Source of the DNA: Argopecten irradians
Lineage: Eukaryota; Mollusca; Bivalvia; Pectinida; Pectinidae
Assembly (NCBI RefSeq): GCF_041381155.1
Contig: NC_091147.1
Location: forward strand, 39,000,053 to 39,064,052
Direction: 5' to 3'
Length of the DNA stretch: 64,000 nucleotides
The notes under the pieces were generated by a model. It had not been told where the DNA came from and did no database searches. It saw only the letters and a list, made by a program, of their open reading frames with translations. The position numbers and the translations under genes are program-made. Shown in pieces: positions 1 through 38,700 of the stretch. Every line of letters starts with the position of its first letter. Position 1 is the first letter of the stretch.

Positions 1-3000
1 CAAGATCAGAGTAAGTGTAGTACATTTAGTCACAGTAGACAGTGGGACAAGATCAGAGTAAGTGTAGTACATTTAGTCACAGTAGACAGCTAGTGGGACA
101 AGATCAGAGTAAGTGTAGTACATTTAGTCACAGTAGACAGTGGGACAAGATCAGAGTAAGTGTAGTACATTTAGTCACAGTAGACAGCTAGTGGGACAAG
201 ATCAGAGTAAGTGTAGTACATTTAGTCACAGTAGACAGTGGGACAAGATCAGAGTAAGTGTAGTACATTTAGTCACAGTAGACAGCTAGTGGGACAAGAT
301 CAGAGTAAGTGTAGTACATTTAGTCACAGTAGACAGTGGGACAAGATCAGAGTGAGTGTAGTACATTTAGTCACAGTAGACAGTAGGACAAGATCAGAGT
401 AAGTGTAGTACATTTAGTCACAGTAGACAGCTAGTGGGACAAGATCAGAGTAAGTGTAGTACATTTAGTCACAGTAGACAATTAGTGGGACAAGATCAGA
501 GTGAGTGTAGTACATTTAGTCACAGTAGACAGCTAGTGGGACAAGATCAGAGTAAGTGTAGTACATTTAGTCACAGTAGACAATTAGTGGGACAAGATCA
601 GAGTAAGTGTAGTACATTTAGTCACAGTAGACAGTGGGACAAGATCAGAGTAAGTGTAGTACATTTAGTCACAGTAGACAATTAGTGGGACAAGATCAGA
701 GTAAGTGTAGTACATTTAGTCACAGTAGACAGCTAGTGGGACAAGATCAGAGTAAGTGTAGTACATTTAGTCACAGTAGACAGTGGGACAAGATCAGAGT
801 AAGTGTAGTACATTTAGTCACAGTAGACAGTGGGACAAGATCAGAGTAAGTGTAGTACATTTAGTCACAGTAGACAGTGGGACAAGATCAGAGTGAGTGT
901 AGTACATTTAGTCACAGTAGACAGTGGGACAAGATCAGAGTGAGTGTAGTACATTTAGTCACAGTAGACAGCTAGTGGGACAAGATCAGAGTAAGTGTAG
1001 TACATTTAGTCACAGTAGACAGCTAGTGGGACAAGATCAGAGTAAGTGTAGTACATTTAGTCACAGCAGACAGCTAGTGGGACAAGATCAGAGTGAGTGT
1101 AGTACATTTAGTCACAGTAGACAGCTAGTGGGACAAGATCAGAGTAAGTGTAGTACATTTAGTCACAGTAGACAGTAGGACAAGATCAGAGTAAGTGTAG
1201 TACATTTAGTCACAGTAGACAGTAGGACAAGATCAGAGTAAGTGTAGTACATTTAGTCACAGTAGACAGCTAGTGGGACAAGATCAGAGTAAGTGTAGTA
1301 CATTTAGTCACAGTAGACAGCTAGTGGGACAAGATCAGAGTAGTGTAGTACATTTAGTCACAGTAGACAGCTAGTGGGACAAGATCAGAGTAAGTGTAGT
1401 ACATTTAGTCACAGTAGACAGTAGTGGGACAAGATCAGAGTAAGTGTAGTACATTTAGTCACAGTAGAACAACTAGTGGGACAAGATCAGAGTAAGTGTA
1501 GTACATTTAGTCACAGTAGACAGACTAGTGGGACAAGATCAGAGTAAGTGTAGTACATTTAGTCACAGTAGACAGCTAGTGGGACAAGATCAGAGTAAGT
1601 GTAGTACATTTAGTCACAGTAGACAGTGGGACAAGATCAGAGTAAGTGTAGTACATTTAGTCACAGTAGACAGTAGTGGGACAAGATCAGAGTGAGTGTA
1701 GTACATTTAGTCACAGTAGACATTAGTGGGACAAGATCAGAGTAAGTGTAGTACATTTAGTCACAGTAGACAGTGGGACAAGATCAGAGTAAGTGTAGTA
1801 CATTTAGTCACAGTAGACAGTAGGACAAGATCAGAGTAAGTGTAGTACATTTAGTCACAGTAGACAGTAGGACAAGATCAGAGTAAGTGTAGTACATTTA
1901 GTCACAGTAGACAGTAGGACAAGATCAGAGTAAGTGTAGTACATTTAGTCACAGTAGACAGTAGGACAAGATCAGAGTAAGTGTAGTACATTTAGTCACA
2001 GTAGACAGATGGACAAGATCAGAGTAAGTGTAGTACATTTAGTCACAGTAGCAGCAGTGGGACAAGATCAGAGTAAGTGTAGTACATTTAGTCACAGTAG
2101 ACAGTGGGACAAGATCAGAGTAAGTGTAGTACATTTAGTCACAGTAGACAGTGGGACAAGATCAGAGTAAGTGTAGTACATTTAGTCACAGTAGACAGTA
2201 GTGGGACAAGATCAGAGTAAGTGTAGTACATTTAGTCACAGTAGACAGTAGTGGGACAAGATCAGAGTAAGTGTAGTACATTTAGTCACAGTAGACAATT
2301 AGTGGGACAAGATCAGAGTTAGTGTAGTACATTTAGTCACAGTAGACAGTGGGACAAGATCAGAGTAAGTGTAGTACATTTAGTCACAGTAGACAGCTAG
2401 TGGGACAAGATCAGAGTAAGTGTAGTACATTTAGTCACAGTAGACAATTAGTGGGACAAGATCAGAGTAAGTGTAGTACATTTAGTCACAGTAGACAGTG
2501 GGACAAGATCAGAGTGAGTGTAGTACATTTAGTCACAGTAGACAATTAGTGGGACAAGATCAGAGTGAGTGTAGTACATTTAGTCACAGTAGACAGCTAG
2601 TGGGACAAGATCAGAGTAAGTGTAGTACATTTAGTCACAGCAGACAGCTAGTGGGACAAGATCAGAGTAAGTGTAGTACATTTAGTCACAGTAGACACTA
2701 GTGGGACAAGATCAGAGTAAGTGTAGTACATTTAGTCACAGTAGACAGTAGTGGGACAAGATCAGAGTAAGTGTAGTACATTTAGTCACAGTAGACAGTA
2801 GGGACAAGATCAGAGTAAGTGTAGTACATTTAGTCACAGTAGACACTAGTGGGACAAGATCAGAGTAAGTGTAGTACATTTAGTCACAGTAGACAGTAGT
2901 AGGGGACAAGATCAGAGTGAGTGTGTAGTACATTTAGTCACAGTAGACAGCTAGTGGGACAAGATCAGAGTGAGTGTAGTACATTTAGTCACAGTAGACA

Positions 3001-6000
3001 ATTAGTGGGACAAGATCAGAGTGAGTGTAGTACATTTAGTCACAGTAGACAGCTAGTGGGACAAGATCAGAGTAAGTGTAGTACATTTAGTCACAGTAGA
3101 CAGCTAGTGGGACAAGATCAGAGTGAGTGTAGTACATTTAGTCACAGTAGACAGTAGGACAGTGTAGACAGTGGGACAAGATCAGAGTGAGTGTAGTACA
3201 TTTAGTCACAGTAGACAGTAGTGGGACAAGATCAGAGTGAGTGTAGTACATTTAGTCACAGTAGACAGTAGGACAAGATCAGAGTGAGTGTAGTACATTT
3301 AGTCACAGTAGACAATTAGTGGGACAAGATCAGAGTAAGTGTAGTACATTTAGTCACAGTAGACAGCTAGTGGGACAAGATCAGAGTAAGTGTAGTACAT
3401 TTAGTCACAGTAGACAGCTAGTGGGACAAGATCAGAGTAAGTGTAGTACATTTAGTCACAGTAGACAGTGGGACAAGATCAGAGTAAGTGTAGTACATTT
3501 AGTCACAGTAGACAGTGTGGGACAAGATCAGAGTAAGTGTAGTACATTTAGTCACAGTAGACAGTGGGACAAGATCAGAGTAAGTGTAGTACATTTAGTC
3601 ACAGTAGACAGCTAGTGGGACAAGATCAGAGTGAGTGTAGTACATTTAGTCACAGTAGACAGTAGGACAAGATCAGAGTAAGTGTAGTACATTTAGTCAC
3701 AGTAGACAGCTAGTGGGACAAGATCAGAGTGAGTGTAGTACATTTAGTCACAGTAGACAGCTAGTGGGACAAGATCAGAGTAAGTGTAGTACATTTAGTC
3801 ACAGTAGACAGCTAGTGGGACAAGATCAGAGTTAGTGTAGTACATTTAGTCACAGTAGACAGCTAGTGGGACAAGATCAGAGTTAGTGTAGTACATTTAG
3901 TCACAGTAGACAGTAGTGGGACAAGATCAGAGTAAGTGTAGTACATTTAGTCACAGTAGACAGTAGTGGGACAAGATCAGAGTAAGTGTAGTACATTTAG
4001 TCACAGTAGACAGCTAGTTGGACAAGATCAGAGTAAGTGTAGTACATTTAGTCACAGTAGACAGCTAGTGGGACAAGATCAGAGTAAGTGTAGTACATTT
4101 AGTCACAGTAGACAGTAGGACAAGATCAGAGTAAGTGTAGTACATTTAGTCACAGTAGACAGCTAGTGGGACAAGATCAGAGTAAGTGTAGTACATTTAG
4201 TCACAGTAGACAGCTAGTGGGACAAGATCAGAGTAAGTGTAGTACATTTAGTCACAGTAGACAGTAGTGGGACAAGATCAGAGTAAGTGTAGTACATTTA
4301 GTCACAGTAGACAGCTAGTGGGACAAGATCAGAGTGAGTGTAGTACATTTAGTCACAGTAGACACAGTAGTGGGACAAGATCAGAGTGAGTGTAGTACAT
4401 TTAGTCACAGTAGACAGCTAGTGGGACAAGATCAGAGTAAGTGTAGTACATTTAGTCACAGTAGACAGCTAGTGGGACAAGATCAGAGTAAGTGTAGTAC
4501 ATTTAGTCACAGTAGACAGTAGTGGGACAAGATCAGAGTAAGTGTAGTACATTTAGTCACAGTAAGTAGTGGGACAAGATCAGAGTAAGTGTAGTACATT
4601 TAGTCACAGTAGACAGTAGTGGACAAGATCAGAGTAAGTGTAGTACATTTAGTCACAGTAGACAGTGGGACAAGATCAGAGTAGTGTAGTACATTTAGTC
4701 ACAGTAGACAGTGGGACAAGATCAGAGTAAGTGTAGTACATTTAGTCACAGTAGACAGTGGGACAAGATCAGAGTAAGTGTAGTACATTTAGTCACAGTA
4801 GACAGTGGGACAAGATCAGAGTAAGTGTAGTACATTTAGTCACAGTAGACAGTAGGGACAAGATCAGAGTAAGTGTAGTACATTTAGTCACAGTAGACAG
4901 TAGTGGGACAAGATCAGAGTAAGTGTAGTACATTTAGTCACAGTAGACACTAGTGGGACAAGATCAGAGTAAGTGTAGTACATTTAGTCACAGTAGACAG
5001 CTAGTGGGACAAGATCAGAGTGAGTGTAGTACATTTAGTCACAGTAGACAGCTAGTGGGACAAGATCAGAGTAAGTGTAGTACATTTAGTCACAGTAGAC
5101 AATTAGTGGGACAAGATCAGAGTGAGTGTAGTACATTTAGTCACAGTAGACAATAGTGGGACAAGATCAGAGTAAGTGTAGTACATTTAGTCACAGTAGA
5201 CATAGTGGGACAAGATCAGAGTAAGTGTAGTACATTTAGTCACAGTAGACATAGTGGGACAAGATCAGAGTAAGTGTAGTACATTTAGTCACAGTAGACA
5301 GCTAGTGGGACAAGATCAGAGTAAGTGTAGTACATTTAGTCACAGTAGACAGCTAGTGGGACAAGATCAGAGTGAGTGTAGTACATTTAGTCACAGTAGA
5401 CAGCTAGTGGGACAAGATCAGAGTAAGTGTAGTACATTTAGTCACAGTAGACAGTGGGACAAGATCAGAGTAAGTGTAGTACATTTAGTCACAGTAGACA
5501 GCTAGTGGGACAAGATCAGAGTAAGTGTAGTACATTTAGTCACAGTAGACAGCTAGTGGGACAAGATCAGAGTGAGTGTAGTACATTTAGTCACAGTAGA
5601 CAACTAGTGGGACAAGATCAGAGTAAGTGTAGTACATTTAGTCACAGTAGACAGCTAGTGGGACAAGATCAGAGTAAGTGTAGTACATTTAGTCACAGTA
5701 GACAGTGGGACAAGATCAGAGTAAGTGTAGTACATTTAGTCACAGTAGACAGTAGACAGATAGTGGACAAGATCAGAGTAAGTGTAGTACATTTAGTCAC
5801 AGTAGACAGCTAGTGGGACAAGATCAGAGTAAGTGTAGTACATTTAGTCACAGCAGACAGCTAGTGGGACAAGATCAGAGTAAGTGTAGTACATTTAGTC
5901 ACAGTAGACAGCTAGTGGGACAAGATCAGAGTGAGTGTAGTACATTTAGTCACAGTAGACAGTGGGACAAGATCAGAGTAAGTGTAGTACATTTAGTCAC

Positions 6001-9000
6001 AGTAGACAGCTAGTGGGACAAGATCAGAGTAAGTGTAGTACATTTAGTCACAGTAGAGACAGTGGGACAAGATCAGAGTAAGTGTAGTACATTTAGTCAC
6101 AGTAGACAGTGGGGACAAGATCAGAGTAAGTGTAGTACATTTAGTCACAGTAGACAGTAGTGGGACAAGATCAGAGTAAGTGTAGTACATTTAGTCACAG
6201 TAGACAGTAGTGGGACAAGATCAGAGTAAGTGTAGTACATTTAGTCACAGTAGACATAGTGGGACAAGATCAGAGTAAGTGTAGTACATTTAGTCACAGT
6301 AGACAGTAGTGGGACAAGATCAGAGTAAGTGTAGTACATTTAGTCACAGTAGACAGCTAGTGGGACAAGATCAGAGTAAGTGTAGTACATTTAGTCACAG
6401 TAGACAGTAGGACAAGATCAGAGTAAGTGTAGTACATTTAGTCACAGTAGACAGCTAGTGGGACAAGATCAGAGTAAGTGTAGTACATTTAGTCACAGTA
6501 GACAGTAGGACAAGATCAGAGTAAGTGTAGTACATTTAGTCACAGTAGACAGCTAGTGGGACAAGATCAGAGTAAGTGTAGTACATTTAGTCACAGTAGA
6601 CAGCTAGTGGGACAAGATCAGAGTAAGTGTAGTACATTTAGTCACAGTAGACAGCTAGTGGGACAAGATCAGAGTAAGTGTAGTACATTTAGTCACAGTA
6701 GACAGTAGGACAAGATCAGAGTAAGTGTAGTACATTTAGTCACAGTAGACAGCTAGTGGGACAAGATCAGAGTAAGTGTAGTACATTTAGTCACAGTAGA
6801 CAGTGGGACAAGATCAGAGTAAGTGTAGTACATTTAGTCACAGTAGACAGTAGGACAAGATCAGAGTAAGTGTAGTACATTTAGTCACAGTAGACAGTGG
6901 GACAAGATCAGAGTAAGTGTAGTACATTTAGTCACAGTAGACAGCTAGTGGGACAAGATCAGAGTAAGTGTAGTACATTTAGTCACAGTAGACAGCTAGT
7001 GGGACAAGATCAGAGTAAGTGTAGTACATTTAGTCACAGTAGACAGTAGTGGGACAAGATCAGAGTAAGTGTAGTACATTTAGTCACAGTAGACAGTGGG
7101 ACAAGATCAGAGTAAGTGTAGTACATTTAGTCACAGTAGACAGTGGGACAAGATCAGAGTGAGTGTAGTACATTTAGTCACAGTAGACAAGTAGTGGGAC
7201 AAAGATCAGAGTAAGTGTAGTACATTTAGTCACAGTAGACAGTAGTGGGACAAGATCAGAGTAAGTGTAGTACATTTAGTCACAGTAGACAGTGGACAAG
7301 ATCAGAGTAAGTGTAGTACATTTAGTCACAGTAGACAGTAGGACAAGATCAGAGTGAGTGTAGTACATTTAGTCACAGTAGACACAGTGGGACAAGATCA
7401 GAGTAAGTGTAGTACATTTAGTCACAGTAGACAGTGGGACAAGATCAGAGTAAGTGTAGTACATTTAGTCACAGTAGACAGTGGGACAAGATCAGAGTAA
7501 GTGTAGTACATTTAGTCACAGTAGACACTAGTGGGACAAGATCAGAGTAAGTGTAGTACATTTAGTCACAGTAGACAGTGGGACAAGATCAGAGTAAGTG
7601 TAGTACATTTAGTCACAGTAGACAGTAGTGGGACAAGATCAGAGTAAGTGTAGTACATTTAGTCACAGTAGACAACTAGTGGGACAAGATCAGAGTGAGT
7701 GTAGTACATTTAGTCACAGTAGACAACTAGTGGGACAAGATCAGAGTAAGTGTAGTACATTTAGTCACAGTAGACAACTAGTGGGACAAGATCAGAGTGA
7801 GTGTAGTACATTTAGTCACAGTAGACAGTGGGACAAGATCAGAGTAAGTGTAGTACATTTAGTCACAGTAGACAGTGGGACAAGATCAGAGTAAGTGTAG
7901 TACATTTAGTCACAGTAGACAGCTAGTGGGACAAGATCAGAGTGAGTGTAGTACATTTAGTCACAGTAGACAGTAGGACAAGATCAGAGTAAGTGTAGTA
8001 CATTTAGTCACAGTAGACAGCTAGTGGGACAAGATCAGAGTAAGTGTAGTACATTTAGTCACAGTAGACAGTAGTGGGACAAGATCAGAGTAAGTGTAGT
8101 ACATTTAGTCACAGTAGACAGTAGTGGGACAAGATCAGAGTAAGTGTAGTACATTTAGTCACAGTAGACAGCTAGTGGGACAAGATCAGAGTAAGTGTAG
8201 TACATTTAGTCACAGTAGACAGCTAGTGGGACAAGATCAGAGTAAGTGTAGTACATTTAGTCACAGTAGACAGCTAGTGGGACAAGATCAGAGTAAGTGT
8301 AGTACATTTAGTCACAGTAGACAGCTAGTGGGACAAGATCAGAGTAAGTGTAGTACATTTAGTCACAGTAGACAGCTAGTGGGACAAGATCAGAGTGAGT
8401 GTAGTACATTTAGTCACAGTAGACAGTAGGGACAAGATCAGAGTAGTGTAGTACATTTAGTCACAGTAGACAGCTAGTGGGACAAGATCAGAGTAAGTGT
8501 AGTACATTTAGTCACAGTAGACAGCTAGTGGGACAAGATCAGAGTGAGTGTAGTACATTTAGTCACAGTAGACAGTAGGACAAGATCAGAGTAAGTGTAG
8601 TACATTTAGTCACAGTAGACAGCTAGTGGGACAAGATCAGAGTGAGTGTAGTACATTTAGTCACAGTAGACAGTGGGACAAGATCAGAGTAAGTGTAGTA
8701 CATTTAGTCACAGTAGACAGCTAGTGGGACAAGATCAGAGTAAGTGTAGTACATTTAGTCACAGTAGACAGTAGGACAAGATCAGAGAAAGTGTAGTACA
8801 TTTAGTCACAGTAGACAATTAGTGGGACAAGATCAGAGTAAGTGTAGTACATTTAGTCACAGTAGACAGCTAGTGGGACAAGATCAGAGTTAGTGTAGTA
8901 CATTTAGTCACAGTAGACAATTAGTGGGACAAGATCAGAGTGAGTGTAGTACATTTAGTCACAGTAGACAGCTAGTGGGACAAGATCAGAGTAAGTGTAG

Positions 9001-11075
9001 TACATTTAGTCACAGTAGACAGTAGGACAAGATCAGAGTAAGTGTAGTACATTTAGTCACAGTAGACAGCTAGTGGGACAAGATCAGAGTAAGTGTAGTA
9101 CATTTAGTCACAGTAGACAGTAGGACAAGATCAGAGTAAGTGTAGTACATTTAGTCACAGTAGACAGTAGTGGGACAAGATCAGAGTAAGTGTAGTACAT
9201 TTAGTCACAGTAGACAGCTAGTGGGACAAGATCAGAGTAAGTGTAGTACATTTAGTCACAGTAGACAGTAGTGGGACAAGATCAGAGTAAGTGTAGTACA
9301 TTTAGTCACAGTAGACAGTAGTGGGACAAGATCAGAGTAAGTGTAGTACATTTAGTCACAGTAGACAATTAGTGGGACAAGATCAGAGTAAGTGTAGTAC
9401 ATTTAGTCACAGTAGACAGCTAGTGGGACAAGATCAGAGTAAGTGTAGTACATTTAGTCACAGTAGACACTAGTGGGACAAGATCAGAGTGAGTGTAGTA
9501 CATTTAGTCACAGTAGACAGTAGTGGGACAAGATCAGAGTAAGTGTAGTACATTTAGTCACAGTAGACAGACAGTGGGACAAGATCAGAGTAAGTGTAGT
9601 ACATTTAGTCACAGTAGACAGTAGGGACAAGATCAGAGTGTAGTGTAGTACATTTAGTCACAGTAGACAGACTAGTGGGACAAGATCAGAGTAAGTGTAG
9701 TACATTTAGTCACAGTAGACAGTGGGACAAGATCAGAGTAAGTGTAGTACATTTAGTCACAGTAGACAGCTAGTGGGACAAGATCAGAGTAAGTGTAGTA
9801 CATTTAGTCACAGTAGACAGTGGGACAAGATCAGAGTAAGTGTAGTACATTTAGTCACAGTAGACAGCTAGTGGGACAAGATCAGAGTAAGTGTAGTACA
9901 TTTAGTCACAGTAGACAGTAGGACAAGATCAGAGTGAGTGTAGTACATTTAGTCACAGTAGACAGTGGGACAAGATCAGAGTAAGTGTAGTACATTTAGT
10001 CACAGTAGACAGTAGGACAAGATCAGAGTGAGTGTAGTACATTTAGTCACAGTAGACAGTAGGACAAGATCAGAGTGAGTGTAGTACATTTAGTCACAGT
10101 AGACAGCTAGTGGGACAAGATCAGAGTAAGTGTAGTACATTTAGTCACAGTAGACAGTAGGACAAGATCAGAGTAAGTGTAGTACATTTAGTCACAGTAG
10201 ACAGCTAGTGGGACAAGATCAGAGTAAGTGTAGTACATTTAGTCACACGTAGGACAGTATCAGAGTAGTTAGTACATTTAGTCACAGTCAGTGGACAAGA
10301 TCAGAGTAAGTGTAGTACATTTAGTCACAGTAGACAGTAGGACAAGATCAGAGTAAGTGTAGTACATTTAGTCACAGTAGACAGTAGTGGGACAAGATCA
10401 GAGTAAGTGTAGTACATTTAGTCACAGTAGACAGCTAGTGGGACAAGATCAGAGTGAGTGTAGTACATTTAGTCACAGTAGACAGCTAGTGGGACAAGAT
10501 CAGAGTAAGTGTAGTACATTTAGTCACAGTAGACAGTAGTGGGACAAGATCAGAGTAAGTGTAGTACATTTAGTCACAGTAGACAATTAGTGGGACAAGA
10601 TCAGAGTAAGTGTAGTACATTTAGTCACAGTAGACAGTAGTGGGACAAGATCAGAGTAAGTGTAGTACATTTAGTCACAGTAGACAACTAGTGGGACAAG
10701 ATCAGAGTGAGTGTAGTACATTTAGTCACAGTAGACAGCTAGTGGGACAAGATCAGAGTAAGTGTAGTACATTTAGTCACAGTAGACAGTAGGACAAGAT
10801 CAGAGTAAGTGTAGTACATTTAGTCACAGTAGACAGTGGGACAAGATCAGAGAATAGTGTAGTACATTTAGTCACAGTAGACAGTAGTGGGACAAGATCA
10901 GAGTGAGTGTAGTACATTTAGTCACAGTAGACAGTGGGACAAGATCAGAGTAAGTGTAGTACATTTAGTCACAGTAGACAACAGTGGGACAAGATCAGAG
11001 TAAGTGTAGTACATTTAGTCACAGTAGACAGTAGTGGGACAAGATCAGAGTGAGTGTAGTACATTTAGTCACAGT
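1..11075 (+). repeat. Giant minisatellite, 47-51 bp unit, roughly 220 copies
   Basis: The stretch is an unbroken head-to-tail array that begins before the window. The unit runs from GGGACAAGATCAGAG through AAGTGTAGTACATTTAG to TCACAGTAGACAG, followed by a variable joint. Joints ending CAGT or CAGTA give 47 bp, CAGTAGT gives 50 bp, and CAGCTAGT or CAATTAGT give 51 bp. A second variable site reads GTAAGT, GTGAGT or GTTAGT, and a third is CAGTAGA versus CAGCAGA. The first ~350 bp alternate 47 and 51 bp units, a ~98 bp dimer. Because 51 is divisible by three, runs of 51-bp units read open as a 17-residue repeat (GQDQSKCSTFSHSRQLV). This is a by-product of period and is not evidence for a protein. 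The array probably lies in an intron of RFC4, whose C-terminal exons follow in the same orientation. Confidence 0.97.
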
Positions 11076-11589: not shown

Positions 11590-12885
11590 ATTATTTCTAG
11601 TTATATATTAAATAAAATATTCTTTCATAATGACATGTGGCCGTAAAGCACACAGGCTTCCAGCTATAGAGGTGGTATCTATTTCCAGTGTGCCTATTTT
11701 CCATGTAACGTGTGGACACGACTTTCATCCAAACTCAGGCGTGGGCGTAAAAGGTGTCACAAGACAGGGTTTGCAGGGTCAATTTGACACACACTCAAGA
11801 TAATCCATTCACTCACCTCTCATATGTCATACATCATGACAACTGACAATTTTACACAGTTGGGGTCAATTTACATGTACAGGACATTACATGTGACACA
11901 GGGACATGTAAATTCAGACAGGAAACACAGCGCATGTTGTTTTAAGTAATAATATAATATATTTTATGTGCACAGTGAAGTTTCAAACACAACAATTGTT
12001 TGTAATAAGTTCACTGTCCTGAAAATTGAAAATGGTGGGGATGTTAACATGTAGAGGCTGTGGTACAGGGGACTTACTTTCATATGTGGATAGGAGGGAT
12101 AAAGAAATTCTATCCAGGGGTCATAAATGATATCTATTTAATGTCATTCAATTGCCTACAGTATTACTCCAGGCTTGCCAAGTTTACAATTTTACAAACT
12201 TTGTGATTAACAAAGAAAATCTCTATTGAATATCTTACCTATACATATGGTTTTTAATAAATTTTTCATTTTATCTTATAATTTTACAGATAATATCCAC
12301 TATCATGTTTATGGGTTTTAGTGGGTAATGTCCAGCAACAAATTTGAATAAAATTGTAGCAAAATATTCACTATCTATAAAAAAGTTGTCTGATATTTTT
12401 CAATGTAACCAATATTGCATTTTTACACAATATTTCAAATGGTTGCAGGTGAATTGTGATTGCTGCCATAAAAACCAGTTAGCGCATTTTCAAATTTTAA
12501 CGATGAAACCTGGCATATTCAAATTTTAAAAGGAAAACCCAATTAGGTTCACAGACAGTGACGTCAAAGTTGCATTGCATTTGGGTAACATGATTTTTAC
12601 AGTCTCAGACAACAAGATAACAAGTGTATTGTACAAGATACTAAACTAGTACTGAACCAATAGGTATGAGATAAATATATTGTGTGCAATCATATGCTGT
12701 CTCGTCTCATAATCCAGTTGTCTCGTCTCATCACCAGTTCATCACCTTCAGCATGTTCTCATGTATCATCCAGTTTTCGTCTGCTCACATTTATACATAT
12801 AATATGTTGTTTATACATGAATTTCATATGCATCTAGAAGCGATACCTTTAAGAAATTTGGGCGGTTAGTTTATCGATTATATAC
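11590..12885 (+). repeat. Direct duplication, copy A (~1.3 kb)
   Basis: This segment and the next (12,950-14,047) are diverged direct copies. Both begin near TTTCTAGTTATATATTAAAT and share GGCCGTAAAGCACACAGGC, CATGTAACGTGTGGACACG and GTGACGTCAAAGTTGCATTG. Both end at CTAGAAGCGATACCTTTAAG followed by AAATTTGGGCGGTT. Copy A is longer through small insertions. No coding potential is supported, and the reading frames found inside are short and not shared between the copies. Confidence 0.85.
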
Positions 12886-12949
12886 ATGTTATACATATAC
12901 ATATTATAAAGGTTTATTAATTATATTGCATAATGAAAGAATAAGTTAA

Positions 12950-14047
12950 TTACTTTATTTCTAGTTATATATTAAATAAACATACCTTTCAGCACTGTGG
13001 CCGTAAAGCACACAGGCTTCCAGCTATAGGTGGTATCTGTCCGGTGCCTATTTTCCATGTAACGTGTGGACACGCTTCCACCAGGGTGGGCGTACACGTG
13101 CAAGGACAGGGTCATGCAGGGTCAATGTGACACACTCAACCAATCCATTCACTCACCTCTCATATGTCATCATAACAACTCACATACACAGATTTACATG
13201 TACAGGACATTACATGACACAGGGACATGTAAATTCAGACAATACACAGCGCATGTAGTTTTAAGACCTAATATAATATATTTTATGTGCACAGTGAATT
13301 CAAACACCGCAACAATTGTTTGTAGAGTTCACTGTCCTGCCTTGAAATGGTGGGGATGGGGGTAGAGGCTGTGGTACAGGGGACTTTCTTTCATATGTGG
13401 ATAGGAGGGATAAAGAAATTCTATCCAGGGGTCACAAAATGTAGTAATACTCCAGGCTTGCCAAGTGTTTTACAACACTTTGTGATAACAAGGGTTAGAA
13501 TATCTCTATCTTACCTATCTACATATGACATAGTATTTTTCTCTCATATCATTACAGATAATATCCAGTCAATTTGGGGTTTTCAGCAACAAATTTGAAT
13601 AAAATTGCGACTGCAAATATATTCATCTAATAAAAAAGTTGTCTGATATTTTTGACATAAATCTACCAGTTTGCATCTTTTACAATAATTTCAATCTGGT
13701 TTCTGAAATTGGCATTCAAATTTTAACGAGAAAACTGGCATAAGGTTCACACAGTGACGTCAAAGTTGCATTGCATGTTGGGTAACCATTTACAGTCTCA
13801 GACGGCACAAGTGTATTGTACAAGATAAACTAGTACTGAACCAATAGGTATGAGAGAAATATATTGTTGCATATCATATGCTGTCTCGTCTCATCATCCA
13901 GTTGTCTCGTCTCATCATCCAGTTGTCTCGTCTCATCATCCAGTTTTCGTCTGCTCACATTTATACATATATATGTTGTTTGTAGCATGAATTTCATATG
14001 CATCTAGAAGCGATACCTTTAAGAAATTTGGGCGGTTTTCGATTATA
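12950..14047 (+). repeat. Direct duplication, copy B (~1.1 kb)
   Basis: This is the partner of copy A, in the same orientation and shorter. It contains a local triplication of a ~21 bp motif (TGTCTCGTCTCATCATCCAG) at about 13,881-13,945, which is present only about once or twice in copy A. The pair could be part of a larger dispersed repeat, but no terminal repeats were found. Confidence 0.85.
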
Positions 14048-15272: not shown

Positions 15273-15467
15273 GCAGCTCTAAGGAGAACAATGGAAAAAG
15301 AAACCAAGACCACAAGATTTTGTCTGATTTGTAACTACGTCAGTCGCATCATCGAGCCTATTGCTTCAAGATGTGCAAAGTTCCGTTTTAAACCACTGTC
15401 TGAAGAAACACTTACTAAGAGACTGAAGGGGATCTGTGACAAAGAAAGCATCAGCTGTGATGACCAG
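15273..15467 (+). CDS. RFC4: RFC4 exon with SRC motif
   Basis: This exon has 65 codons, starts after TTGTAG, reads [16 protein letters not shown] and ends at CDDQ before GTTTGT. The donor GTTTGT is weaker than the other RFC4 donors. The arginine-finger SRC motif lies near codon 32. A methionine inside the exon is not the gene start, because the homologous human residues precede it and the acceptor is in phase. Confidence 0.93.
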
Positions 15468-18400: not shown

Positions 18401-21400
18401 TAATTTGCGAAAATTTATATCTGCAATTTAACACCTACATCATTGATTGTAAATTCCATTAAAATTTTAAATCCATGAATGTTAATTTTCGTGAACTTGT
18501 TTTGAAATGGAAATTGTGAAATTTAGCAGCCGCAAAGGAAGTTGGTTTACAGTGATCACTTACATGATAATGTGTGAATTTTTAGCTCAAATTTCATTTA
18601 CAGATATAAATTGTTGCAAACGTACTTGTTTTAGCACACAAAATGTTAGCACAAAATTTATTTTCAACATGTGTTAGCCCAGTGATGAATTCAGTTGATT
18701 ATTACAGTGAAGTATTTGTAATCCTAATGATGTACAGAATAGCAAAATGTGTTTAAGCGCTTTTGTCTGGCACAAAAAATTAAAAAAAAAAAAAAAAAAA
18801 AAAAAAGAACCACTAGAAATGTACGTTTACTGTATATTTTCATTATAATTTTTTAAAATCTGACAGGGTATCAAGGCTCTTTTACGAACATCAGAAGGAG
18901 ACCTGAGAAAGGCAATCACTTATTTACAAAGTGCTTCTCGACTAAAAGCAGAGGAAACTATTACAGAAGAAGATATTGATGAAATAGCAGGGGTAAGTCA
19001 GAAATAGCAGGAGTGAATTAGAAATATCCAGATGATAATACCAAGAGTCAGAGTGAGACGGAAACAGAAATGACAATTCAGAAATAGAAAGAATGATTCA
19101 GAAATGGTGACAGATCAGAAAGAAAAGGAAGGTTTCAAAAATCACAGTAGTGAATCAGAAATAGCTGGAATGAATCTTATATAGCATATAAAATAGCAGG
19201 ACTGAATCTAAAATAGCATATAAAATAGCAGGACTGAATCTAAAATAGCATCTAAAAATAGCAGGACTGAATCAGAAATTTCAAGAGGGACCTTTGTAGT
19301 AAGGCAGAAAAACAGGAGTGAGTTAAAATTAGAAAAAAAAACAATTTACTATTAGTAGGTAGCAGTAAAGGGTATTGAAATAGTAGGTTTACAATAGCAA
19401 TCAAAAGTAGAAAATATCGCTAATGTCGGAAACAGGGAAAGAAAATCGGAAATGGTGAGTCCTGGAAATGACAAATGTTAGTAGAATAGGGAAGTAGCGG
19501 GTCATTATTGGTCCCCCAAGAGAGTCAGAAAAATTCTCTTTAAGGCTCAAACAAATGGCTTCCTGACGTGATAGTTTCATTATTAGGTATTTGTATTTTT
19601 CACAGGTTGTACCTGATCAAGTTTTAGATGACCTGATTGCTGTTTGCAGCACAGACTCCTATGAGAAGCTGGATGCAGGCGTTCAAGTGAGTAAATCGGT
19701 AAACTAAGGGAAACTATTGGATATGATCACTTTAGATTGGTGAAGTATTTTACTGACAAATTAATTCTCCCTTTCATCGTGGTTATCAATAATAATAACA
19801 GTATCACTCAAAGCTCCATCATCAACACTACTTTTAAAGTGAATAGTCAGACAAACAAAACAAGAGGCCCAGAGGGCCTGTATCGCTCACCTGGTTTGTA
19901 ATGTCAAGTCATGTTCTGAATACAGGTTCATTGTTTCTTTTCTGCAGGAATTTGAATATTTACCTCTTATGTCCCTATCCCCCCCCCCCTCCTGCCCCCG
20001 GGGGGTCAGAGCCAAAATTTATACAAGTTCTGTTCCCCTTCCCCCAAGGATATTTGTGGCCAAATTTTGTTACAATCCATGCAGAACTCTAGGACAAGTA
20101 GCGATTTATAGAATTTACCTCTATTTCCCCTATATTGGGCCCCGCCACTCCTGCCCCTGAGGGGTCAGAGCCAAAATTTATACAAGTTATGTTCCCCTTC
20201 ACCCAAGGATGTTTGTGGCAAAATTTGGTCACAATCCATGCGGAACTCTATGACTAGTAGCGATTTAAATTAAATGTCGACGGGCGACGGACGCCGCGCC
20301 ATGACATAAGCTCACCGGCCCTTCGGGCCAGGTGAACTAAAAACCAGTTTTGACCATTGAAATTATGGTAAAGCCCCATGTAAATTTAGCACAGTTCTAA
20401 AATGAATTCGCCTTACTATTTGAAAGCGAGGCTGTGTGGAAATATCAACACACACATAGCCAGACGGGAAGACATTTTAGGATTCCTATAATTTAAATTA
20501 ACTTTTTTGCATGCACAACGGGACAGGAAACTTCATTTTTCTATTTCATAAAAAAACATTACCACCTCTGGGTTATGAGTTAAGAATCCACATGGAATTG
20601 TTGTTAGGTATTGAGTGAAGATCAGTAGTTTTCTCCGGGTACTGAGTGAAGGTCAGTAGTTTTCTCCGGGTACTGAGTGAAGGTCAGTAGTTTTCTCCGG
20701 GTACTGAGTGAAGGTCAGTAGTTTTCTCCGGGTACTGAGTGAAGGTCAGTAGTTTTCTCCGGGTACTGAGTGAAGGTCAGTAGTTTTCTCCGGGTACTGA
20801 GTGAAGGTCAGTAGTTTTCTCCGGGTACTGAGTGAAGGTCAGTTTTTTTCTCCGGGTACTGAGTGAAGGTCAGTAGTTTTCTCCGGTACGAGTGGGTCAA
20901 GTTTCTCCGGGTACTGAGTGAAGGTCAGTAGTTTTCTCCGGGTACTGAGTGAAGGTCAGTAGTTTTCTCCGGGTACTGAGTGAAGATCAGTAGTTTTCTC
21001 CGGGTACTGAGTGAAGGTCAGTAGTTTTTCTCCGGGTACTGAGTGAAGGTCAGTAGTTTTCTCCGGGTACTGAGTGAAGGTCAGTAGTTTTCTCCGGGTA
21101 CTGAGTGAAGGTCAGTAGAGTGAAGGTCAGTAGTTTTCTCCGGGTACTGAGTGAAGGTCAGTAGTTTTCTCCGGGTACTGAGTGAAGGTCAGTAGTTTTC
21201 TCCGGGTACTGAGTGAAGATCAGTAGTTTTCTCCGGGTACTCTAACTTTCTTCTACCTCCTAAACCTGGCTAACTGCACTATGGTAGCTCAAAGGACTTT
21301 TAGACAGAAAATGATGTCGTCTTTAGAGCTACAGTTGGCGCCTATTACTGCTAATGGAGCAAAGTAATGATTATGCAAACCATTATAAAACGTCGGTTTG

Positions 21401-23631
21401 CATTATATCGTACTTGGTTGATGTCGCTTACCTACTCGGCAATAAAACTGAACCACATAAAATATCAAATTCTCATCGAGGCATTATTTTTTTTTTACAT
21501 AATACATATGAAGGTCTTTCTGAAGGAAATTTATACGGCAAGTCCACTAATTGTGAATTTGACGTCTTGTGAACGGTACGGTAGATATTAAGAATGGTAG
21601 TTGTGTTTGTTTTGGACAAAAATAATATGTAAATGCATGTATACGCATAAAATAATCGGAAACCTACAAAAAGGTATAGAAAACTGTGCCCGAGTGATTT
21701 TCGGAGGCAGTGCTCCACTACGACACATAGGGACCAATTCGTACCTGGCCGAAAGGTATAGTAGGCCGGGTACGTATATTCGTTCTAAAACCTGGCATGT
21801 CCTTAAATCACCGTGGTAACCTGGCTGTTGCCACTTAATATGACATACACCAAATAATTTAATACATGTACTATATTTGGTGTCAAATGAGTAAGTTTGT
21901 TGCTAAAACTGACTATCGAAGAATATTGCAGGTAATCAGTTCAGTAATCCAACCAACATATTTTCTGTATCAAAAGGTCACTGAGACTTAATTGATAATC
22001 ATATAACAATTTAACCTAGGTAAGGCTATGTAGAATACCGAAATATAAATATATATATATATACTTTTACAAATCATTCACAATGACTTGGAAGTAAGTA
22101 CAGAAGAGGTCTTAGTGTGGGAAGAAACCGGAGTACCCAGAGAAAACCAATGTAATCGGGCAGGTGACCCCTAATCTTTTCATTGGGGATCGAACCCCAG
22201 CCGGCTAGGTGAAAGGTGAGTGCCGAGCGGCTCAACCACTCCACCATCCAATCACCCTTAGTAGTTTCACTAAGACTCCCAATCTATTTACTGAATTATT
22301 GTTTATTTGTTTCACTGTATTGTTAATTTGTTTATTTGCTGTAATTCCAGGGCCTCATTAACGATGGTCACTCAGCGTCACAAGTCATCACACAAATGCA
22401 TGAAAAACTGATAGAAAAGGAAGATCTCACAGACAAACAAAAAGCAGCCATCTTTGAAAAGCTTGCAGTAAGTGTACACATATCAGAAGGGACACAATAT
22501 TTCACTAAATCTGAATGTTAGTTGGATGTAGGCTCTTCACATAAGGAAGAGTTACTTCCCTTCCCTGTCATTTCCTACTCGGAGTAAATACAATTTATTG
22601 TGAGAGGTTCAATCATTTATTGTACTTGTTTTTCAGCTCGTTAACATGTTTTTCACGTCGTCGTCAAATGCCTGATTGATGTTGAATTGTTTATTTTTCA
22701 AGTTGCTGACAAATGTGTAACCGATGTTGAATTGCTTAGGAGCTCACCTGCCCAAAGTCCTGATATTTGGTTTATAGTATGCAGGTATTTCATTCAAGGT
22801 CACAGGAGCCAAATAAGCTAAATTCTTTAAACAATTTCTTAATTACCATGTCTAGAGACCCGATATGAGGCCTGTAACGTGCTAGGATGCAGGGCTACCA
22901 GGTTTGTTCAAATAAATGACTTTGACCACAGGGGTCAAATAGGCTAAAATATCTTTCAAACAACTTATTCTTAATAAGCAATTATGCCTAGAGAACTGAT
23001 ATTGGGCATTTGACATGCTGGGATGAAGGCCTAGCAATTTGTTTAAATGAATGACTTTGACCTTCATTCAAGGTCACAGGGGTCAAATTAAAAGAGACTA
23101 AAATGTTACGCAACTTCTTATCAAGAACTAATAAGCCTAGACACCTGAAATTATAGGGGTCATACATAGAAATTCTTATTGACTCTTATATGTCTTGAGT
23201 ATGCACCATGATTACCAGATATAGCAGGTGAGCGATTTGGGCCCCTTGTTTTTCAGGTTGACATGAGGTTGTTGACAAATGCCTGATGGATGTTGAATTA
23301 TTTGTTTTTCAGATTGTTGACAAATGCTTGATGGATGTTGAATTATTTGTTTTTTCAGATTGTTGACAAATGCTTGATCAATGTTGAATTATTTGTTTTT
23401 CAGATTGTTGACAAATGCTTGATCAATGTTGAATTATTTGTTTTTCAGATTGTTGACAAATGCTTGATCAATGTTGAATTATTTGTTTTTCAGATTGTTG
23501 ACAAATGCCTGATCAATGTTGAATTATTTATTTTTCAGATTGTTGACAAATGCCTGATGGATGGAGCTGACGAGTACTTACAATTGATGTCTCTCTTCAC
23601 CATTATAATGCACCAAGTTTGTCACGGATGA
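15273..23631 (+). CDS. RFC4: Replication factor C subunit 4, C-terminal part of a spliced gene (5 exons visible)
   Basis: RFC4 is a small AAA+ subunit of the clamp loader that places PCNA on primer-template DNA in the nucleus. Five exons join in phase 0 to give ~203 residues: 15273-15467, 18867-18992, 19606-19686, 22351-22467 and 23539-23631, the last ending in TGA. All introns start with GT and end with AG. Exon 1 holds the SRC motif (IASRC, arginine finger) in a block that follows metazoan RFC4 closely ([20 protein letters not shown]). Exon 2 holds the sensor-2 motif GDLRKAI. Exons 3-5 are the helical collar domain. The human protein is ~363 residues, so the Walker A and B part must lie upstream, beyond the giant minisatellite. 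RFC2 and RFC5 fit less well. The annotated span includes the introns. Confidence 0.93.
15537..15574. other. Imperfect hairpin in RFC4 intron
   Basis: CAGAGTTATC and GATAACTCTG form inverted arms around an 18-base spacer. GATAACTCTG also occurs at about 15,034-15,043, next to the hAT-type MITE. Confidence 0.5.
15717..15823. mobile_element. Small foldback (MITE-like) element
   Basis: The arms CGTGATATCCTATAACGTTT and AACGTTATCAGGTATCACG are inverted around a ~60 bp centre that also has ATAT-CCC complementarity. There is no coding capacity. Target duplications were not resolved. Confidence 0.55.
15846..18115 (+). mobile_element. Hairpin/tandem-core repeat element (outer), split by another element
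   Basis: It starts with a hairpin around ATCCCCCGCCCAACAAAGTT/GGTAGGGATAT, followed by a CCGTCCGTCTG segment and a core unit (TTTCCGACGCATAACTCTAA ... TGCTATTTTTAGGTTTTCA). The same core unit resumes at ~17,938-18,115 after the nested element at 16,034-17,910. The right terminus is not clear. The family is inferred to be the hairpin/tandem-core group typical of bivalves. Confidence 0.6.
16034..17910 (+). mobile_element. Hairpin/tandem-core (pearl/HINE-like) element with 146-bp core units
   Basis: The element opens with a terminal hairpin (AGGTCATCTGACCCGAAGGG with its complementary arm), then a CCGTCCGCCGTGCG tract. About ten tandem 146-bp units follow, with matching positions at 16,295, 16,441, 16,587 and 16,733. 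It closes with GGCCCTTTGGGCCTCTTGT. A second copy of the closing motif at ~17,763-17,780 suggests a duplicated terminus. It sits inside the core of the outer element, after a run of T. Frames seen on the minus strand across the units are periodic artefacts. It has no replicase or transposase frame. The Helentron-associated assignment rests on architecture only. Confidence 0.75.
18116..18866. other. RFC4 intron, no gene; A-tract near 18,783
   Basis: This is AT-rich intronic DNA with a ~24-base A run at about 18,782-18,806. It ends with the acceptor TGACAG before RFC4 exon 2. Confidence 0.5.
18867..18992 (+). CDS. RFC4: RFC4 exon with sensor-2 motif
   Basis: This exon has 42 codons between TGACAG and GTAAGT. 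It reads [20 protein letters not shown], then [20 protein letters not shown] and AG. GDLRKA is the sensor-2 motif of RFC small subunits. The equivalent human exon has the same phase and nearly the same length. Confidence 0.94.
18993..19290 (+). repeat. Irregular intronic repeats resembling the exon/donor junction
   Basis: The exon ends GAAATAGCAGGGGTAAGTCA. The intron then repeats GAAATAGCAGGAGTGAATTA and further variants (AAAATAGCAGGACTGAATC at about 19,188, 19,222 and 19,256). The series looks like diverged tandem copies of the junction itself, with the donor lost in the copies. Confidence 0.55.
19606..19686 (+). CDS. RFC4: RFC4 exon, collar domain start
   Basis: This exon has 27 codons between TTTTTCACAG and GTGAGT. 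It reads [20 protein letters not shown] then KLDAGVQ, matching the human VIPAEKIDGVFAACQSGSFD region. Confidence 0.93.
19838..20570 (+). mobile_element. MITE of the AGTGAATAGTC family, 3' truncated and split
   Basis: It begins AGTGAATAGTCAGAC and, after a nested element (19,860-20,338), resumes with internal sequence shared with the complete copy at 24,630-24,994 (TTTGACCATTG, GTGTGGAAATATCAAC, CATTTTTCTATTTCAT). The right terminus is missing. Confidence 0.7.
19860..20338 (-). mobile_element. Hairpin/tandem-core element, nested, minus orientation
   Basis: Read on the minus strand it opens with the hairpin AGTTCACCTGGCCCGAAGGG and closes with GGCCCTCTGGGCCTCTTGT. It holds about two core units of ~158 bp, each containing a pyrimidine-rich CTGTTCCCCTT stretch and CAATCCATGC. 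It is inserted between A residues (T|T on the other strand) inside the AGTGAATAGTC-family MITE. Confidence 0.75.
20605..21245 (+). repeat. 31-bp minisatellite, ~20 copies
   Basis: The unit is GTACTGAGTGAAGGTCAGTA plus GTTTTCTCCGG. A short degenerate patch lies near 20,884-20,905 and a partial unit near 21,116. The array runs into TTTTCTCCGGGTACTCTAAC at its right end, which matches the conserved central part of molluscan tRNA-derived SINEs. It lies in an RFC4 intron. Confidence 0.92.
21230..21840 (+). repeat. SINE-like fragments
   Basis: 21,228-21,290 (CTCCGGGTACTCTAACTTTC then a cytosine-rich stretch and AAACCTGGCTAACTGC) and 21,785-21,830 (AAACCTGGCATGTCCTTAAA then GGCTGTTGCC) resemble the body and tail of a SINE family seen elsewhere in this window. 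The DNA between them has no recognisable gene. Confidence 0.5.
22090..22258 (-). mobile_element. tRNA-derived SINE
   Basis: On the minus strand the tRNA-like head has an A-box-like TGGTGGAGTGGTTGAG and a B-box GGTTCGATCCCC. It is followed by the central domain GGTTTTCTCTGGGTACTCCG and TTTCTTCCCACACTAAGACC. It is probably transcribed by RNA polymerase III when active. It lies in an RFC4 intron, antisense to the gene. Confidence 0.8.
22351..22467 (+). CDS. RFC4: RFC4 exon, collar domain
   Basis: This exon has 39 codons between GTAATTCCAG and GTAAGT. It reads [20 protein letters not shown] then [19 protein letters not shown]. Human RFC4 has the aligned LIDEGHAATQLVNQLHD and LSDKQKSIITEKLAE. Confidence 0.94.
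22634..22739 (+). repeat. Older diverged copies of the RFC4 acceptor/exon repeat
   Basis: Two diverged units (TTTTTCAGCTCGTTAACATG ... CAAATGCCTGATTGATGTTG and TTTTTCAAGTTGCTGACAAA ...) match the tandem array that precedes the last exon. A hairpin/tandem-core element at 22,740-23,249 separates them from that array. Confidence 0.75.
22740..23249 (+). mobile_element. Degenerate hairpin/tandem-core element inserted in the acceptor repeat
   Basis: It starts GGAGCTCACCTGCCC, has two to three diverged core units with GGTCACAGGGGTCAAAT, and ends GCAGGTGAGCGATTTGGGCC then CCTTGT. It interrupts a unit between GAATTGCTT and TTTCAG, which is again a T|T junction. Confidence 0.7.
23251..23538 (+). repeat. 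Tandem array of the last-exon splice acceptor (45-bp unit, in frame)
   Basis: The unit is the first ~22 bases of the last RFC4 exon (ATTGTTGACAAATGC...), then GTTGAATTATTTGTTTTTCAG. Acceptor AGs end at 23,312, 23,358, 23,403, 23,448, 23,493 and 23,538. The last five are spaced exactly 45 bp apart, so each upstream acceptor is in phase with the true exon and would add a 15-residue module ([15 protein letters not shown]). The 23,312 acceptor is 46 bp from the next and therefore out of phase. Confidence 0.93.
23539..23631 (+). CDS. RFC4: RFC4 terminal exon
   Basis: This exon has 30 residues plus TGA. It reads [20 protein letters not shown] then [10 protein letters not shown], matching the human end [20 protein letters not shown]. 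The most 3' acceptor of the array is taken as the true one because it gives the length and sequence of the family. Confidence 0.94.
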   Translation: MVDKCLMDGADEYLQLMSLFTIIMHQVCHG

Positions 23632-35101: not shown

Positions 35102-35720
35102 TCAAGAATGATGCACAGTAGTGAACCATTCTCAATTCAAAAAGCAGTATTTTCTTATTATAGATTATAGAACTTCATTAATCAAAGACAGTCTGATTAT
35201 AGCCGTTTTGTTTTCCCGTCAGTTCAAAAATGAAACTGTGCACAACGTTATAGACTAGAGGAAATCAAGGTTTGAATTACACAAAATCATCCTTTTTATA
35301 ACGTATTTCAACTGTCAAAATACATGATCAGCTCCTTGTTCACGTGTGTCGCCCACATTCTGCTCCTACTCAGCCAACATATCCTAGTTTAACAATGGGA
35401 ACAATAGAGAATAATAGGGACTACATGTATTTACAATATGTTTGTCTGTTTGTAGTCCACCACACCATAGTATTACGTCACTGTGGTAAATACAAAGTAA
35501 CAGTCAATGAAACATATTATCAAGATCCTAATAACGATGTCAATCTCAACCCGGCAAAAGCAATTGGGCAAGATTTAATCAGTCTTAAAAGAGATATTAG
35601 ATGTCCTAGATAGTCCTCCTATGATTTTCTTTAAGAAAACAAATCCTGTCAACATGGAAAAAAGGCTAATATTGTACCGTATAAGTTCATTAAGAGGGAA
35701 ATACGATGATGCATCACACA
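35102..35720. other. Non-coding segment before the 33-bp satellite
   Basis: A frame of 89 codons at 35,344-35,613 shows no family features and is not accepted. Nothing else was recognised. Confidence 0.4.
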
Positions 35721-35721
35721 C

Positions 35722-38700
35722 CGTCAGAGAAGTAGTGGTAATATGTTGAGACATTGTGAGAGAAGTAGTGGTAATATGTTGAGACATTGTGAGAGAAGTA
35801 GTGATAATATGTTGAGACATTGTGAGAGAAGTAGTGGTAATATGTTGAGACACTGTTAGGGAAGTAGTAGTAATATGTTGAGACATTGTGAGAGAAGTAG
35901 TGGTAATATGTTGAGACATTGTCAGAGAAGTAGTGGTAATATGTTGAGACATTATGAGAGAAGTAGTGGTAATATGTTGAGACATTGTGAGAGAAGTAGT
36001 GATAATATGTTGAGACACTGTTAGGGAAGTAGTGGTAATATGTTGAGACATTGTGAGAGAAGTAGTGGTAATATGTTGAGACATTGTGAGAGAAGTAGTG
36101 GTAATATTGTAAGACACTGTTAGAGAAGTAGTGGTAATATGTTGAGACACTGTTTGAGAAGTAGTGATAATATGTTGAGACACTGTTAGGGAAGTAGTGG
36201 TAATATGTTGAGACATTGTGAGAGAAGTAGTGGTAATATGTTGAGACATTGTGAGAGAAGTAGTGGTAATATGTTGAGACATTGTGAGTGAAGTAGTGGT
36301 AATATTGTGAAACACTGTTAGAGAAGTAGTGGTAATATGTTGAGACACTGTTAGATTAGTAGTGGTGATATGTTGAGACACTGTTTGAGAAGTAGTGATA
36401 ATATGTTGAGACACTGTTAGGGAAGTAGTGGTAATATGTTGAGACATTGTGAGAGAAGTAGTGGTAATATGTTGAGACATTGTGAGAGAAGTAGTGGTAA
36501 TATGTTGAGACATTGTGAGAGAAGTAGTGGTAATATGTTGAGACATTATGAGAGAAGTAGTGGTAATATGTTGAGACACTGTTAGAGAAGTAGTGGTAAT
36601 ATGTTGAGACACTGTTAGAGAAGTAGTGGTAATATGTTGAGACACTGTTAGAGAAGTAGTGGTAATATGTTGAGACATTGTGAGAGAAGTAGTGGTAATA
36701 TGTTGAGACATTGTGAGAGAAGTAGCGATAATATGTTGAGACACTGTTAGGGAAGTAGTGGTAATATGTTGAGACATTGTGAGAGAAGTAGTGGTAATAT
36801 GTTGAGACATTGTGAGAGAAGAAGTGGTAATATTGTAAGACACTGTTAGAGAAGTAGTGGTAATATGTTGAGACACTGTTTGAGAAGTAGTGATAATATG
36901 TTGAGACACTGTTAGTGAAGTAGTGGTAATATGTTGAGACATTGTGAGAGAAGTAGTGGTAATATGTTGAGACATTGTGAGAGAAGTAGTGATAATATGT
37001 TGAGACACTGTTAGGGAAGTAGTGGTAATATGTTGAGACATTGTGAGAGAAGTAGTGGTAATATGTTGAGACATTGTGAGAGAAGTAGTGGTAATATTGT
37101 AAGACACTGTTAGAGAAGTAGTGGTAATATGTTGAGACACTGTTTGAGAAGTAGTGATAATATGTTGAGACACTGTTAGAGAAGTAGTGGTAATATGTTG
37201 AGACATTGTGAGAGAAGTAGTGGTAATATGTTGAGACATTGTGAGAGAAGTAGTGATAATATGTTGAGACACTGTTAGGGAAGTAGTGGTAATATGTTGA
37301 GATATTGTGAGAGAAGTAGTGGTAATATGTTGAGACATTGTGAGAGAAGTAGTGGTAATATTGTAAGACCCTGTTAGAGAAGTAGTGGTAATATGTTGAG
37401 ACACTGTTTGAGAAGTAGTGATAATATGTTGAGACACTGTTAGGGAAGTAGTGGTAATATGTTGAGACATTGTGAGAGAAGTAGTGGTAATATGTTGAGA
37501 CACTGTTAGGGAAGTAGTGGTAATATGTTGAGACATTGTGAGAGAAGTAGTGATAATATGTTGAGACACTGTTAGGGAAGTAGTGGTAATATGTTGAGAC
37601 ATTGTGAGAGAAGTAGTGGTAATATGTTGAGACATTGTGAGTGAAGTAGTGGTAATATTGTGAAACAATGTTAGAGAAGTAGTGGTAATATGTTGAGACA
37701 CTGTTAGATTAGTAGTGGTGATATGTTGAGACACTGTTTGAGAAGTAGTGATAATATGTTGAGACACTGTTAGGGAAGTAGTGGTAATATGTTGAGACAT
37801 TGTGAGAGAAGTAGTGGTAATATGTTGAGACATTGTGAGAGAAGTAGTGGTAATATGTTGAGACATTGTGAGAGAAGTAGTGGTAATATGTTGAGACATT
37901 ATGAGAGAAGTAGTGGTAATATGTTGAGACACTGTTAGAGAAGTAGTGGTAATATGTTGAGACACTGTTAGAGAAGTAGTGGTAATATGTTGAGACACTG
38001 TTTGAGAAGTAGTGGTATTATGTTGAGACACTGTTAGAGAAGTAGTGGTAATATGTTGAGACATTGTGAGAGAAGTAGTGGTAATATTGTAAGACACTGT
38101 TAGAGAAGTAGTGGTAATATGTTGAGACACTGTTTGAGAAGTAGTGATAATATGTTGAGACACTATTAGGGAAGTAGTGGTAATATGTTGAGACATTGTG
38201 AGAGAAGTAGTGGTAATATGTTGAGACATTGTGAGAGAAGTAGTGATAATATGTTTAGACACAGTTAGGGAAGTAGTGGTTATATGTTGAGACATTGTGA
38301 GAGAAGTAGTGGTAATATGTTGAGACATTGTGAGAGAAGTAGTGGTAATATTGTAAGACACTGTTAGAGAAGTAGTGGTATTATGTTGAGACACTGTTTG
38401 AGAAGTAGTGATAATATGTTGAGACACTGTTAGAGAAGTAGTGGTAATATGTTGAGACATTGTGAGAGAAGTAGTATGGTAATATGTTGAGACATTGTGA
38501 GAGAAGTAGTGATAATATGTTGAGACACTGTTAGGGAAGTAGTGATAATATGTTGAGACATTGTGAGAGAAGTAGTGGTAATATGTTGAGACATTGTGAG
38601 AGAAGTAGTGGTAATATTGTAAGACACTGTTAGAGAAGTAGTGGTAATATGTTGAGACACTGTTTGAGAAGTAGTGATAATATGTTGAGACACTGTTAGG

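Follow-up and report, generated by a model that had tools for sequence, protein, structure and literature searches.

Minisatellites have been described at exon-intron borders in human duplicated genes, with units averaging 30 bp in four copies that splicing may either remove or retain and that, where they are coding, mostly keep the frame, and in genes within segmental duplications such border repeats alter both splicing and coding (PMC2812944). Human UBC carries a tandem array of dual-specific splice sites that yields stochastic isoforms (PMC10809524). Here we describe a tandem array in Argopecten irradians whose repeated unit is itself a splice acceptor, and which closes the last intron of the clamp-loader gene RFC4. 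The array lies in a stretch of 64,000 nucleotides, referred to as the window, which covers positions 39000053-39064052 of contig C14 (NC_091147.1; the contig ends at 39156874) in an assembly of 846 Mb. We consider it probable that this array and others at junctions of RFC4 and RFC2 are minisatellites that were seeded on splice junctions, grew into the intron, and are removed by use of the exon-proximal site.

The gene was identified by sequence match as RFC4, since its last two exons, when joined, match the C-terminus of human RFC4 with E=1.3e-17, and the next kind of clamp-loader chain follows at 0.018. Across the window and the 10 kb preceding it (L044), we mapped eight RFC4 exons and 15 junctions, and all eight exons read without stops. 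At least one more exon must exist, and an earlier note on this DNA, which had numbered the exons flanking the last intron 4 and 5, was mistaken on this point. The 3′ end of the gene is laid out as follows, with a slash here and below marking an exon-intron border.

22351..22467, plus strand: penultimate RFC4 exon, with a Rep_fac_C match, ending FEKLA, donor gca/gtaagt, phase 0
22468..23538, plus strand: last RFC4 intron, with a length of 1071 nt for splicing to the exon-proximal AG
22621..22737, plus strand: acceptor-unit copies that are older and have diverged (AG end 22636; units at 22657 and 22702), 77% identical to the array over 90 nt
22738..23246, plus strand: insert of about 500 bp separating the old from the young copies
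23247..23312, plus strand: two upstream acceptors (AG ends 23256 and 23312), use of which leads to a stop
23269-23558, plus strand: tandem array (Tandem Repeats Finder: period 45, 6.4 copies, 97% matches, score 515)
23313..23358, plus strand: 46-bp unit with one extra T, which breaks the 45-bp phase
23359..23538, plus strand: four 45-bp units, in frame and open, with a peptide ending (V/I)FQ and with YTNAY placed 38 and 27 nt ahead of each AG
23539..23631, plus strand: last RFC4 exon, ending in a stop

As the earlier note had reported, five acceptors stand before the last exon, each 45 bp from the next (AG ends 23358, 23403, 23448, 23493 and 23538), and both Tandem Repeats Finder and the AG positions bear this out. 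Each 45-bp unit consists of the exon start, ATTGTTGACAAATGC[CT]TGAT..ATG, followed by the intron end, TTGAATTATTT[GA]TTTTTCAG, such that a branch-point-like YTNAY, a pyrimidine tract, the AG and the exon start are all copied together. Four of the units (23359, 23404, 23449 and 23494) carry GATCAATG, as against GATGGATG in the exon and in the units at 23268 and 23313. The array is thus a boundary minisatellite in the sense of a tandem repeat with a 10-100 bp unit containing the junction, and a chance origin is excluded. Up to eight TTTTCAG acceptors lie within the last intron, and the 45-bp array gives one match in a search of this one genome.

Splicing to any of the five AGs leads through an open frame into the last exon, and to this extent the earlier description of a codon-phased array of acceptor units stands. 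Its wider claim, that any upstream AG could be used in frame and without a stop, does not: entry at AG 23312, which is followed by the 46-bp unit, meets a stop after 17 codons, and entry at AG 23256 gives VDMRLLTNA and then a stop (9 codons).

The acceptor copies decay with distance from the exon, and only the exon-proximal part of the array is homogeneous. To the left of the insert a unit is broken off (...GTTGAATTGCTT) and to its right the same unit resumes as TTGTTTTTCAG, suggesting that an older, longer array was hit by an insertion. The insert is repetitive in the genome from about 22788 onwards (at least 135 matches, with 40 scored of 3183 first-look candidates), and its first 50 or so bases match only themselves. 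Since diverged relics survive and the insert sits in the old part, the acceptor array is not a recent accident.

Copying of exon borders recurs elsewhere in the gene. For every mapped junction we asked whether the sequence around it recurs in the adjoining intron, with a threshold of 75% identity in a 30-nt test. Three of the 15 RFC4 junctions seed arrays, two of them donors, at L044:4306 and (with weaker likeness) at window position 18992, and the third the last acceptor; the other 12 showed no copy of at least 75% identity in the adjoining intron, and for one of these, the donor at L044:3142, the best match was 60%, a level reached by 4% of shuffles. The features at the two donors are as follows.

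1..11075, plus strand: right-hand part of a 16.8-kb array whose unit is an exon 3′ end plus 5′ splice site, AGTGGGACAAGATCAGA/GTAAGTGTAG; the leftward part is at L044:4275-10000
18867..18992, plus strand: RFC4 exon ending DEIAG, donor ggg/gtaagt
18981..19331, plus strand: decayed array of exon end plus donor, 20-bp GAAATAGCAGGGGTAAGTCA, copies 75-88% alike

The exon at donor L044:4306 ends ...CACAGCAGACAGCTAGTGGGACAAGATCAGA/GTAAGTGTAG, and this border is repeated through the next 16.8 kb, giving 337 unit cores and 323 TCAGA/GTRAGT consensus donors in all. Likeness at the junction of the decayed array is 16/20 and 22/30, the latter under the threshold of the 30-nt test, and this array is counted on its 20-nt score. 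Reading through the large array gives TCA GAG TAA, a stop at once, and reading through the decayed one gives GGG GTA AGT CAG AAA TAG, again a stop. Because their inner donors bring such a stop at once, the RFC4 donor arrays offer no way of extending the protein, and splicing must use the exon-proximal donor.

A stretch of RFC2 (L002), which came from a search for the Rep_fac_C family and was not picked for repeats, contains parts of three exons and five junctions; its exons match human RFC2 with E=2.5e-28 and 1.6e-19. Two of these five junctions, one acceptor and one donor, seed arrays, and the other three showed no copies within L002.

L002:1693-1893, minus-strand gene: array of four copies at the acceptor ctag/GTATGTGAT, spacings 47, 60 and 57 bp from intron towards exon
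L002:2870-3189, minus-strand gene: array of 69-bp units at the donor GAGACAG/GTAAGTACTAG, with five CAG/GTAAGT donors at spacings 69, 69, 69 and 76

At the RFC2 acceptor the likeness is 17/20 and 21/30, and the units end in stops in the frame of the exon, the last of them being the TAG just before the exon. The donor array runs off the end of the locus, and the true exon end is not seen within the stretch; the array is in frame through four units, reading VSTSYTDDGIEAIVFTAQGDMRQ, and its most intron-ward copy has a stop.

Minisatellites abound in this genome: a 200-kb sample (20 spread 10-kb stretches) holds 42 arrays (period 15-120, at least 2 copies). We used this sample to gauge how often junctions and repeats coincide by chance, and it predicts that about 1% of junctions lie within the terminal unit of an array. 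Among the 20 RFC4 and RFC2 junctions, 5 are in arrays against 0.2 expected (P=2e-6), and leaving out the RFC4 acceptor that was given from the start leaves 4/19 against 0.19 (P=5e-5). Adding 14 approximate exon edges from a stretch (L045) with a chaperonin-family gene, which may be CCT4, gives 5/34 (P=3e-5), or 4/33 without the given acceptor (P=4e-4). The set is small, the genes were not chosen at random, arrays in the same gene lack independence and one array owes its inclusion to weak likeness, and the figures are a hint only that minisatellites are preferentially seeded at splice junctions.

Genome-wide counts of donor motifs point the same way. Triples at gaps of 15-45 number 7647 for AGGTAAGT against 974 for the reversed motif, and 4259 for AGGTGAGT against 1099, a 4- to 8-fold excess that is one of match counts, since matches overlap within arrays. 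When the first 100 places listed for contig C1 are sorted into separate arrays, AGGTGAGT forms 12 in 41 Mb and reversed AGGTAAGT, a control that is not the exact reverse of AGGTGAGT, forms 8 in 69 Mb, so that the excess by array number is nearer 2.5-fold. We also surveyed arrays for splice motifs present in at least 60% of units, using 20 random 10-kb stretches, L044 with the window, and L045 (42 arrays of at least 3 copies, period 15-200). GTRAGT was found in 2 rows, both belonging to the RFC4 donor array, AGGTRAGT in 0 and the reversed TGARTG in 2; TTTCAG was found in 3 rows, one of them the RFC4 acceptor array, and the reversed GACTTT in 0.

We propose that a small duplication straddling the last RFC4 intron-exon border seeded the minisatellite, which would then have expanded into the intron through successive duplications, its copies decaying there. 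Because the duplication would have straddled the border, each unit carries a full acceptor, and it would have been tolerated because a working junction stays next to the exon, allowing the repeats to spread neutrally. Under this proposal the exon-proximal AG 23538 would mostly be used in mature mRNA and the array would leave with the intron, with low-level use of the 3′-most in-frame copies possibly adding 15-60 residues. The same process may have made the two RFC4 donor arrays and the donor and acceptor arrays of RFC2. Since border-copying is seen at these four further junctions, it looks more like a mode of repeat growth in this genome than a device for extending proteins.

The in-frame character of the RFC4 units, which the earlier note had taken to be very unusual, loses much of its force as a sign of a device in this setting. 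With the intron part shuffled, 75% of RFC4 units stay open, and one-third of periods are divisible by three, so about 25% of arrays should be both in frame and open by chance; read-through is in fact open in two of the five junction arrays and stopped in three. At this chance level for each, with two of five open, we take the open frame of the RFC4 unit to be a coincidence, held with less certainty than if RFC4 stood alone, since the RFC2 donor array is also open. Some upstream AGs in both RFC4 and RFC2 would truncate the proteins, which argues for use of the exon-proximal sites, or of a mixture, in both genes. Both proteins are presumably essential.

Several observations weigh against this account. 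None of the 14 chaperonin edges (7 exons) has a junction array, these edges being the ends of family matches tested 60 nt either side and not mapped junctions, so that junctions beyond that range would escape the test. No tandem array comes within 108 nt of any of the 7 family matches, and the single 24/30 match in one edge window, to AT-rich sequence, was not counted. Given this gene, the border-copying habit is not universal in the genome. Triples of the acceptor motif TTTTTCAG show no genome-wide excess over the reversed motif (619 against 738), which counts against a general rule for acceptors in a test that is weak, since acceptors have no fixed sequence. The RFC2 donor array, like the RFC4 acceptor array, has a period that is a multiple of three and is open over four copies. 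The relic units at 22657 and 22702 also still have an open frame, and in these two units third codon positions account for 9/17 changes (P=0.075). The acceptors themselves are alike in pyrimidine fraction (0.71 for AGs 23312-23538, 0.76 for 22636 and 23256), and YTNAY motifs occur 27-28 and 38-39 nt before each AG from 23312 on, with none before AG 23256. An acceptor matrix built from only 7 sites, five of them from the same gene, ranks 23358 (11.0) above 22636 (8.8) and 23538 (8.1), followed by the copies at 23312, 23403, 23448 and 23493 (5.6 each) and by 23256 (-0.5), scores that are too unsure to use. AG-scanning models, moreover, favour the first AG after the branch point (PMC3250501).

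The reading closest to the earlier note is that these are working tandem acceptors, in which splicing picks among the five in-frame AGs, by chance or regulation, to make RFC4 with 0-4 extra 15-residue modules. All five AGs are open in frame, each with YTNAY motifs and a similar pyrimidine tract, scanning tends to favour a proximal AG (PMC3250501), the RFC2 donor array is open as well, and human UBC shows stochastic use of a tandem splice-site array (PMC10809524). Yet use of two of the upstream acceptors, which are similarly built, would cut RFC4 short, the added residues would sit just before the conserved VDKCL stretch, and stops close three of the four sister arrays, leaving this reading unlikely. 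Going further, the array might be plain coding sequence, with 23358 as the main acceptor and an RFC4 that carries a repeat insert near its C-terminus. The frame is open through the array and in the two relic units, and no other AG has as long a T run or as high a score in the small matrix as AG 23358; human RFC4, however, aligns without any insert at the position of the array, and almost half the length of every unit resembles intron, T-rich tract included, so we regard plain coding as most improbable. Alternatively, the copies might be decoys or regulatory elements: by binding splicing factors, either U2AF or, at the donor arrays, U1, they would adjust how introns are spliced or 3′ ends formed. 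This would make sense of 323 consensus donors in one intron and of up to eight TTTTCAG acceptors in the last, but with no sign of selection and with decayed copies in two arrays, such a role seems improbable.

An assembly artefact or a decayed gene copy would account for a gap in the gene. The RFC4 Walker-B (DEAD) exon, of about 73 nt by phase, did not turn up in the interval from the donor array to 15273, in the 74 kb of L044 plus the window, or assembly-wide at the sensitivity of the search; another clamp-loader gene is listed with a 72% match to the Walker-B stretch. Joining the exons on either side of this gap directly breaks the frame, and either the exon was lost in assembly, perhaps at the array, or this RFC4 copy is defective. 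Against an artefact, the copies in the array are not identical and old relics occur among them, eight exons read without stops, and no second close RFC4 match was found in the assembly among the matches listed, which makes an artefact or decayed copy very improbable as the source of the repeats. We return, then, to minisatellites seeded on splice junctions and spliced out with the intron. A bolder version of this proposal, which we offer as speculation and lean against, is that splice junctions are favoured birthplaces of minisatellites here, and that the arrays, with up to 323 donors and up to eight acceptors in RFC4 introns, act as splice-site reserves that shape intron growth and occasionally give in-frame isoforms, longer by multiples of 15 residues in RFC4 and of 23 in RFC2.

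Two further RFC4 exons in the window lack copies of their junctions.

15273..15467, plus strand: RFC4 exon ending SCDDQ
19606..19686, plus strand: RFC4 exon VVPDQVLDD...GVQ

The window also holds large tandem arrays of 33-bp and 43-bp periods, at 35718-39618 and 40304-42193. Similar translated stretches at 11612-11803 and 12945-13130 (within 11600-14000) point to a tandem duplication, about 1.3 kb long, that has since diverged. Elsewhere in the assembly, the small contigs C658 and C451 give matches like those of C9 (a clamp-loader gene) and C4 (a chaperonin gene), and are perhaps second haplotypes.

Constructs with duplicated splice sites have long been used to study how the spliceosome chooses between sites, and arrays in which complete splice sites recur almost unchanged are their natural counterparts. 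Introns with 323 donors or up to eight acceptors would allow the effects of proximity, transcription order and exon definition to be compared in a living gene. Junction duplication also suggests a simple route of intron growth, one that would be harmless for as long as the exon-proximal copy works.

Among described systems, the NAGNAG tandem acceptors resemble the RFC4 array in that in-frame AGs compete at one junction, and differ in that their AGs are three bases apart, compared with 45 bp and a branch-point-like motif per unit in RFC4 (PMC3250501). In Drosophila, where tandemly duplicated splice sites have changed introns, the duplicated signals are likewise tolerated, except that those duplications lie within exons and make new introns and the RFC4 and RFC2 arrays sit at existing junctions (PMC2891723). 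UBC shares with RFC4 a splice site in every unit and a frame-keeping unit length; its sites, however, are AGGT between coding repeats and serve as both donor and acceptor (PMC10809524). The RFC4 acceptor units read CAG/ATTG, not AG/GT, with repeats on the intron side of the junction, and do not form a dual-specific array of the UBC type. Closest are the human boundary repeats, which are also minisatellites at exon-intron borders, although they occur in recent paralogues with RNA support, whereas the arrays described here, seen in genomic DNA, belong to conserved clamp-loader genes, take the junction itself as their unit and in one case reach 16.8 kb (PMC2812944). A literature search found no splice-junction minisatellite in RFC4 or a clamp loader among the matches listed, a weak negative. 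Use of the junction itself as the repeated unit, several times over in two housekeeping genes, together with the size of one donor array, looks new.

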